Shown here: positions 12,958 through 57,764 of the stretch, in pieces | Layout of the letters: each line of letters begins with the position of its first letter | How positions within the stretch are numbered: position 1 is the stretch's first letter | Source of the DNA: Clostridiales bacterium GWF2_38_85 | Lineage (GTDB): Bacteria > Bacillota > Clostridia > Oscillospirales > CAG-382 | Assembly (NCBI GenBank): GCA_001797275.1 | Contig: MGOY01000032.1 | Coordinates: forward strand, 124,001 to 188,000 | Direction: 5' to 3' | DNA: 64,000 nucleotides | Position numbers and translations under genes: made by a program | The notes under the pieces: generated by a model | Told to the model about the DNA's origin: nothing | The model's input: the letters and a program-made list of their open reading frames with translations, nothing else | The model's database searches: none

Positions 12958-12985
12958 TTGCATTTCTATAATTTCATAGTATAAT
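12958..12985 (+). promoter_or_regulatory. Candidate sigma-A promoter for pfkA
   Basis: TTGCAT - 16 nt - TATAAT. The predicted start site falls at the edge of the hairpin element. Confidence 0.5.
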
Positions 12986-12991
12986 ATATCG

Positions 12992-13082
12992 AACTAACAA
13001 ATGAATTGTGATTTTATTAATCATAAAAAAACCATGGAGTATAGGCTTTTACATGATTACCGGAGTCATTCATTTATTAGTT
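12992..13082 (+). repeat. Long-hairpin element, copy 1 (pfkA leader)
   Basis: Outer arms AACTAACAAATGAAT / ATTCATTTATTAGTT, inner arms AATCAT / ATGATT, loop containing AGTATA. Shares a 24-nt identical block with 20834-20922. Confidence 0.75.
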
Positions 13083-13124
13083 TTGTATAAATAAAGTTTA
13101 TATAAAATATTTTGGAGGTTCTGT

Positions 13125-14189
13125 ATGGCAGAATTTAAAAAAATCGGTATTTTAACTTCAGGTGGTGATGCTCCTGGAATGAATGCGGCAATCAGATCGG
13201 TTACTCGCTACGCTATATATAAAAATATTGAAGTTGTGGGTATTATGAACGGCTACCAAGGACTCCTTGATTCTCAACTTCGTTCGATGCTTGAAGGTGA
13301 TGTTTCGCATGTAATAGACAGGGGCGGAACAATGCTTTATACCTCAAGATGTGAGGAATTTAAAACTGATGCAGGACTTAGAAAAGCAGTCGAGATTTGC
13401 AAGCAAAACGAAATAGACGGTATTGTAACAATAGGCGGTGACGGCACCTTTAGAGGTGCGAACGACCTTTGTAAATACGGTATACCCTGTATAGGATTAC
13501 CCGGTACCATCGACAATGATATCGCCTGCACAGATGCGACGATTGGATTTGATACAGCGATGAATACTGTTCTCAATATGGTCGACCGTCTGAGAGATAC
13601 CGGTGAAAGCCATGCAAGATGCAATGTTGTTGAGGTTATGGGCAGAAAAGCCGGTGACATCGCTATACATACCGCTATTGCTCTCGGTGCAGAAGCTGTT
13701 GCAATCCGTGAATATGTTTTCAATGAAGAATATCTTTACGAAAAGATGCTAACTGCGAAAAAGAACGGTAAGAGATGCTTTATCGTTATTGTTTCAGAAG
13801 GAACCGGCAGGCTGTTCAGCGAAGCTCTCGCAGAACAAATACAGACAAAAACAGGCATCAGCACCAACTTTGCAAAGCTTGCGCATATCCAGAGAGGCGG
13901 TTCTCCCTCACTTGTTGACAGAGTACTTGCAACCAGAATGGGTTGTGAAGCTGTTGAATTGTTGACCAACGGTATAGCAGGCAGAGTAGTGTGCCTTCAA
14001 GGCAGAGATATCGTTTCTGTTGATATCAAGCTGTCTCAAATAATGGACAAGATGCTTAACAATACACTAAAGAGCGGTGATCTTGATGGAATACCTCCGG
14101 AAAATATCGAAATGATGCAGAAGCGTGTTAACGAAAGAATAGAATATAAAAAATTCCAATACGATTTAGTTGATATATTATCTCGATAA
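13125..14189 (+). CDS. pfkA: ATP-dependent 6-phosphofructokinase
   Basis: 'GILTSGGDAPGMNAAIRSVTR', 'TIGGDGTFRGANDL', 'GLPGTIDNDI'. GGDG and GTIDND favour the ATP-type over the PPi-type. Confidence 0.94.
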   Translation: MAEFKKIGILTSGGDAPGMNAAIRSVTRYAIYKNIEVVGIMNGYQGLLDSQLRSMLEGDVSHVIDRGGTMLYTSRCEEFKTDAGLRKAVEICKQNEIDGIVTIGGDGTFRGANDLCKYGIPCIGLPGTIDNDIACTDATIGFDTAMNTVLNMVDRLRDTGESHARCNVVEVMGRKAGDIAIHTAIALGAEAVAIREYVFNEEYLYEKMLTAKKNGKRCFIVIVSEGTGRLFSEALAEQIQTKTGISTNFAKLAHIQRGGSPSLVDRVLATRMGCEAVELLTNGIAGRVVCLQGRDIVSVDIKLSQIMDKMLNNTLKSGDLDGIPPENIEMMQKRVNERIEYKKFQYDLVDILSR

Positions 14190-14284
14190 TAAATTATTCA
14201 AGCTCAAGCAAATTCCCGGCTGAACATTATGAATTGATAATTCATTTTAAATAAAAAAAGTGTTTCAGGAGGGTAGAATTTGTT

Positions 14285-14743
14285 ATGAAAAAAGCATATC
14301 AGCGATTCTTGTGCTTGCGCTTTTGGCTGCAATATTTTACGGATGTACTGACAACGGAAATACATCCTCGAATGACAATTCAATAGACGCAAACCAAACC
14401 GAAAGTACCACCAGTCAGGCTGAACAGTCTGAGGAAATCGGACTTCCGGACATTGGTTGCATCAACTCGGCATGCCTATGGCTCGGTTCAATTCGCTCCA
14501 ACAGAGGAGCTGACCGGCAATGTTATCAAAGACACAGTTGAATACCGTAACTCACTTATCGAAGAAAAATACGGTATTAAAATTGAAACGATTGCGGTTG
14601 ATTATCCGAAGGATATGGTCGCTCAGATTATATTGTCCAATCAGACCGAATACGACATCATCTGCGACGGTGTCTTCCGGATGGCTCAGAATGTATTGTC
14701 GGATTATTTCTGGTGCCTTGATGATGTTGAAGATATATCGTAA
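14285..14743 (+). pseudogene. Frameshifted, C-terminally truncated extracellular solute-binding lipoprotein remnant
   Basis: ATGAAAAAA followed in the wrong frame by 'SISAILVLALLAAIFYGCTDNGNTSS' (lipobox). A second frame switch near 14450 leads into 'GNVIKDTVEYRNSLIEEKYGIKIETIAVDYPKDMVAQIILSNQTEYDIICDG', matching the layout of the SBP at 56191-57696. Stop at 14743. Confidence 0.8.
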
Positions 14744-20804: not shown

Positions 20805-20833
20805 TTATATTAAACCGTCCTTTTATAATATCA

Positions 20834-20922
20834 AACCAGCAAATGAATTGTGATTTTATTAATTTGAAAAAGCCAAAAAGTATAGGCTTTTTTCAAATTG
20901 CTTAGGTAATTCTTTATTAGTT
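20834..20922 (+). repeat. Long-hairpin element, copy 2
   Basis: CAAATGAATTGTGATTTTATTAAT identical to copy 1. Perfect inner hairpin AATTTGAAAAAGCC-aaaaagtata-GGCTTTTTCAAATT. Confidence 0.75.
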
Positions 20923-20940
20923 TTTATAGATCACTTATTT

Positions 20941-32485: not shown

Positions 32486-32534
32486 TTTAATAAAAACCGA
32501 TATTTATATAGATTAAAAATATTATCATATATAT

Positions 32535-32576
32535 ATACGAGTGACAAAAGAAATTAAATGCTTTTGTCACTCGTAT
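32535..32576. terminator. Bidirectional terminator
   Basis: ATACGAGTGACAAAAG / CTTTTGTCACTCGTAT, 16-bp perfect arms between convergent genes. Confidence 0.88.
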
Positions 32577-32595
32577 AATTTTATCAATCGTATAA

Positions 32596-57696: not shown

Positions 57697-57709
57697 GTTT
57701 AATTAGGTT

Positions 57710-57755
57710 ATAAATAAGATCAGGATGCCATAAAAAGCATCCTGATCTTATTTAT
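57710..57755. terminator. Strong bidirectional terminator
   Basis: ATAAATAAGATCAGGATGC / GCATCCTGATCTTATTTAT, 19-bp perfect arms. Confidence 0.88.
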
Positions 57756-57764
57756 AATATAGTT

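Follow-up and report, generated by a model that had tools for sequence, protein, structure and literature searches.

The presence of a long hairpin immediately upstream of pfkA, in the 64,000-nt stretch of DNA analyzed here (the window), raises the question of whether this hairpin is an RNA that serves the gene or a repeat that landed next to it. The original prediction described it as an element present in two copies with compensatory inner-stem changes, and considered a regulatory leader RNA, a stabilizing 5′ hairpin, a small RNA, and, ranked last, a MITE. It is the last of these four readings that the evidence favors: the feature is very probably a MITE, probably spread in trans by an IS630-family transposase.

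Structure and dispersal of the element

Both window copies contain the sequence blocks reported as shared between them, and in both the proposed fold, comprising an outer stem, an internal loop, an inner stem, and a 10-nt loop, was confirmed, with inner stems that differ in sequence between the copies and stay paired. The two copies are therefore real, but the bounds first given to them were too short, as the element reaches a TA on each side (Table 1). It measures ~101 bp, with TIRs of ~21 bp, or ~105 bp when the flanking TAs are included (about 103-106 bp in most of the 76 full-length copies), is non-coding, and carries no transposase. The consensus reads TA, then TATTAAACTAACAAATGAATTGTGATTTTATT-AATTTGAAAAAAGCC-AAAAAGTATA-GGCTTTTTTCAAATT-GCTGAGGTAATTCATTTATTAGTTTTATA, then TA, and the TIR consensus of the 76 full-length copies is TATWAAACTAAYAAATGAATT. 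The whole element forms a single quasi-palindrome, in which the TIRs build the outer stem, followed by an asymmetric internal loop, the inner stem, and the 10-nt loop. Copy 1 belongs to the AATCATG/CATGATT subfamily, its nearest copies being C45:40494, C25:92481, and C14:168725, and several private changes break pairs in its inner stem. Copy 2 belongs to a different subfamily, AATTTGAAAAAAGCC/GGCTTTTTTCAAATT (AATTTG); taken alone, its fold is weak relative to shuffled sequences on the + strand, with a z of -1.2, and the - strand scores better, at -2.2.

Table 1. Features of the two window copies, the pfkA locus, and the resident insertion sequence. Positions refer to the window unless a contig (C) of the host genome (G000) is given.
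Feature	Position	Strand	Basis or remark
MITE copy 1 with flanking TAs (12985-12986, 13088-13089); body 12987-13087	12985..13089	+	covariance-model match G000:C32:136985-137089
Copy 1 left TIR, TATCGAACTAACAAATGAATT	12987..13007	+	TIR consensus TATWAAACTAAYAAATGAATT
Copy 1 right TIR	13068..13087	-	alignment of full-length copies
Copy 1 inner stem (element columns 35-49/60-74) with 10-nt loop	13019..13058	+	
MITE copy 2	20827..20928	+	covariance-model match G000:C32:144827-144928
Probable ancestral pfkA promoter, TTGCAT-16-TATAAT	12958..12985	+	sequence; spacing compared with G001
pfkA (6-phosphofructokinase), 5′ UTR containing copy 1	13125..14189	+	ORF
IS630-family insertion sequence	G000:C8, about 118214-119352		1139 bp with TAs, flanked C-TA...TA-G
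Relic end of the resident IS630	G000:C36:11614		IS-end 26-mer match

The search of the host genome and its relatives with a covariance model, suggested together with the original prediction, was carried out with a model built from 21 copies. It matched ~87 distinct places in the 2.83-Mb host genome, so the element is not a two-copy one, and it matched nothing in the genomes of 148 relatives, among them the single congener covered (G001). Independently of the model, copy 2 used as a BLAST query found about 40 places in the host genome, and the TIR pattern AAACTAAYAAATGAATT had 92 forward and 96 reverse matches compared with 5 and 9 for the reversed-pattern control. Contigs C10, C17, and C29 begin inside element copies, so the assembly is probably interrupted by the repeat, and ~87 is probably an underestimate of the copy number.

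The copies lie on many contigs in unrelated flanks, and two identical ones (C24:95671 and C36:101732) have different surroundings. Among copies with enough flank, 82 of 84 were intergenic according to a simple ORF caller. In regions of tandem genes no orientation bias was found (32 vs 25, p 0.43), and convergent gene pairs harbored 4 copies where about 8 were expected. Such an intergenic, unbiased spread is the pattern of tolerated insertions, unlike that of a leader RNA or a terminator. The element is thus short, non-coding, bounded by TIRs, and dispersed in many copies among unrelated flanks, as is characteristic of a MITE. All its inner-stem subfamilies are paired (AATTTG/CAAATT, AATCATG/CATGATT, GATTTTG/CAAAATC, and CATTCGA/TCGAATG), and shortened derivatives devoid of the inner stem occur at C14:259192, C31:75538, and C37:53473.

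Other sequence features of the window were also recorded. In both copies a weak promoter-like pair, ATCACA-18-TATATT/TATTAT, faces outward from the left end (13012-12983 and 20854-20825, - strand), and the number of such pairs is about that expected by chance. A tRNA located elsewhere was the sole above-threshold Rfam match over the window. Two hairpins with arms of 28-29 nt (32527-32584 and 57701-57764) are possibly terminators; being single-copy in the genome, they are not further MITE families. Downstream of pfkA, at 14260-14743, two short overlapping ORFs resemble a broken gene for a lipoprotein or solute-binding protein.

The pfkA leader and the corresponding sites in relatives

The promoter TTGCAT-16-TATAAT reported just before copy 1 is present, though its match to the consensus is weak: TTGCAT agrees at 3 of 6 positions, and a simple scan favors another -10 box at 12967-12972. 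It lies outside the element except for its last T, which is common to the flanking TA. When the element is removed, TATAAT is separated from GGAGG by 25 nt, and the promoter-to-SD distance of pfkA in G001 is 26 nt. Because removal restores this spacing, the hairpin probably opens the pfkA mRNA, and its proposed placement at the 5′ end of that transcript is supported by the comparison with the region upstream of pfkA in G001. In several other relatives, a promoter-like pair, read by eye, is found at a similar distance upstream of pfkA. Homologs of pfkA with 49-80% identity were identified in 15 of 16 relatives, and reading by eye the stretches upstream of pfkA in 15 relatives revealed no match to the element.

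Empty orthologous sites were sought in G001. The genes flanking copy 2, both on the - strand and named by reading their sequence as a DUF711-like gene and an FAD-dependent oxidoreductase gene, are adjacent in G001 with a gap of about 20 nt that lacks the element, and thus represent an empty site. The gene upstream of copy 1 is not syntenic in G001, so the empty-site alignment fails upstream of pfkA; at this locus, the promoter-SD spacing speaks for an empty ancestral site. The exact TIR 23-mer was absent from the GTDB species genomes, a collection from which the host's own records are possibly missing. Three genomes from one related genus gave weak BLAST matches to the inner stem, which fell short of the covariance model. 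TIR matches in viral contigs were due to chance; they fall at the beginning of a coding sequence of a phage (MKLTNEF...) and have no covariance-model match.

These data bear on the first alternative, namely that the hairpin is a cis-acting regulatory or stabilizing leader RNA of pfkA maintained by selection. Although the hairpin is located between the likely promoter and the ribosome-binding site, and copy 1 folds more stably than shuffled sequences (z -4.3 to -4.6, the latter value on the + strand), none of the 148 relatives yields a covariance-model match, and G001 has nearly the same promoter-SD spacing without this hairpin. At copy 1, no Rfam family passes its gathering score, and the two matches obtained at E up to 1 are far below threshold. 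The substitutions private to copy 1 destabilize its fold as random ones would (see below). Neither conservation upstream of pfkA in relatives nor maintenance of pairing at the pfkA locus was found, and we consider a selected pfkA leader RNA very unlikely.

Covariation among copies and its origin

The differing yet paired inner stems had been taken as the mark of selection on RNA structure. When more copies were examined, as had been proposed, the structure did covary across subfamilies, with a score of 0.091 compared with 0.068 +/- 0.006 for shuffles, none of 500 shuffles reaching the observed value. The branches on which the paired changes arose were assessed on a tree of 76 copies, with changes placed by parsimony, a reconstruction that is rough for such short AT-rich sequences and has weak nodes. 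Inner-stem changes that altered both sides of a pair and preserved it accounted for 8 of 54 events on internal branches and 1 of 117 on tips (Fisher p 0.0005). Similarly, restorations of any kind compared with breaks numbered 19 vs 21 on internal branches and 13 vs 61 on tips (p 0.001). Overall, inner-stem changes on tip branches broke 61 pairs and kept 30. At the origin of the subfamily of copy 1, two adjacent pairs changed on one branch.

Copy 1 itself differs from its subfamily by 11 private substitutions, which weaken the fold from -38.3 to -25.7 kcal/mol. Random placement of these substitutions gave a mean of -23.2 kcal/mol, and 32% of the simulated sequences were at least as stable as the real one. 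A fold-energy permutation over all copies showed damage below random (p 2e-7); it was rejected as a signal of selection, as it pools private changes with those inherited by whole subfamilies, and the split into tip and internal branches removes it.

The compensatory changes are thus real across subfamilies, and they are inherited from source elements. Selection on RNA structure at the individual loci, as originally inferred, is not supported: the paired changes are located on internal branches, changes in individual copies mostly break pairs, and copy 1 is decaying; in addition, orientation toward neighboring genes is unbiased, and the hairpin was found in none of the relatives. From the branch-wise pattern and the random-like destabilization of copy 1, it follows that the palindrome is maintained in the replicating elements and decays after landing; copy 1 is decaying, and there is no sign of selection on the pfkA leader RNA. 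Paired changes of this kind can also arise by template switching from one hairpin arm to the other, a published mutational route that requires no RNA selection (PMC8794818). Pairing in the replicating sources may have been kept because mobility requires the palindrome, because template switching corrects one arm from the other, or for both reasons. In one copy, G000:C31:34801-34904, the inner loop is present as the exact reverse complement of its usual sequence, i.e., inverted relative to the outer part, suggesting that the two arms of a DNA hairpin exchanged sequence.

The same results apply to the second alternative, a dispersed family of small RNAs, or of bidirectional terminators or processing sites, under genome-wide selection. 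Covariation above shuffles and the location of copies between genes would fit such a family, but orientation is unbiased, convergent gene pairs are not favored, and broken inner-stem pairs prevail over kept ones on tip branches; in addition, no terminator-like pattern was found at either window copy. We regard this reading, too, as very unlikely. Also very unlikely is a palindrome of the REP/REPIN kind, mobilized by a RAYT (Y1 tyrosine) transposase, or a hairpin end of IS200/IS605 type, since its agreement with a short, palindromic, intergenic, multicopy element is offset by long, near-perfect TIRs flanked by TA and by ends that match those of a resident IS630.

The resident IS630 element and known repeat families

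The host genome encodes one IS630 transposase (NF033545, E 2e-21 and 8e-38), split over two frames that overlap near an A8 run. The ends of this insertion sequence, TATATAACTAACTATTGATTTAGG and TATATAACTAACAAAATAATTAGG, agree with the MITE ends at 17-19 of 24 positions (5-7 differences), a likeness to a resident IS630 that characterizes MITEs mobilized by this family. A degenerate IS-end 26-mer, searched over the whole genome with up to 3 mismatches, detected nothing but the pair of IS ends, a single MITE copy (2 mismatches), and one relic IS end, and its reversed control gave no match. None of the 148 relatives has the resident transposase; a transposase pattern scan of named genomes gave 146 matches, none of them in a relative. 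Plasmids of other bacteria commonly carry distant IS630 homologs (about 50% identity).

Members of the IS630 family usually target TA, often within CTAG. In the AT-rich context of the host, TA was found on both flanks in 54 of 77 copies, as expected for duplication of a TA target, although TA identity at both flanks in such DNA is weak proof of target-site duplication. Next to the flanking TA, the left base was C in 35 of 77 copies and the right base G in 46 of 77, as in a CTAG target, and column 1 was T in 61 of 77. A correlation scan of the flanks detected no longer target-site duplication. The restricted distribution common to the MITE and the resident IS630, together with their matching ends, makes supply of the transposase in trans by this IS630, or by a closely related one since lost, the best explanation. 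Because the ends are similar and not identical, the actual helper could be another IS630 that was lost.

According to this MITE model, an IS630-family (Tc1/mariner-like, DDE) transposase would cut the ~101-bp non-coding quasi-palindrome at its ~21-bp TIRs and insert it at TA, preferably within CTAG, with duplication of the TA. Copy 1 would have been inserted just 3′ of the pfkA -10 box, so that the pfkA mRNA probably starts within the element; its 5′ hairpin would then be a by-product of the insertion, and the effect of this hairpin is possibly nil. It is unlikely that the pfkA copy has been co-opted, with transcription starting in the left TIR and the 5′ hairpin blocking 5′-end decay or being processed by RNase III; if true, the co-opted hairpin would set glycolytic flux in the host species.

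The helper of Nezha is of the IS630 type. Nezha, a TIR-bounded cyanobacterial MITE (cited in PMC10969869), is comparable to the present element as a TIR-bounded bacterial MITE, in architecture only and in a different host. The closest known system is RUP of Streptococcus pneumoniae together with IS630-Spn1. RUP is 107 bp long, occurs in about 108 intergenic copies, has ends like those of IS630-Spn1, and shares with that insertion sequence the TA target (PMC2229807). The element described here is similar in length (~105 bp with TAs), copy number (~87), the presence of a resident IS630 with similar ends, and the TA target; the likeness is one of architecture, in a different host, and, unlike RUP, the present element forms a single long quasi-palindrome, the inner stems of its subfamilies having been re-paired. 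Correia/NEMIS elements of Neisseria are also short and TIR-bounded, exceed 100 copies, and can end up in transcripts and become RNase III substrates (PMC10969869, PMC2229807), but they differ in host and sizes, and Correia elements have experimentally shown promoters and IHF sites. Transcribed Correia/NEMIS and ERIC insertions can provide promoters or undergo RNase III or RNase E processing (PMC10969869). ERIC/RPE, palindromic repeats of about 105-146 bp, form long hairpins once transcribed (PMC2229807); in this respect they resemble the present element, with no sequence relation claimed.

The feature is therefore an ordinary type of element in a new host and not a new regulatory RNA. With it, the lineage gains a RUP-like MITE family linked to IS630, found here in one genome only and carried by none of the 148 sampled relatives. 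It also provides a worked case in which covariation within a repeat family resembles selection on RNA, yet arises in the mobile source lineage; such covariation would mislead any scan in which paired differences among dispersed copies are taken to prove that an RNA is functional.
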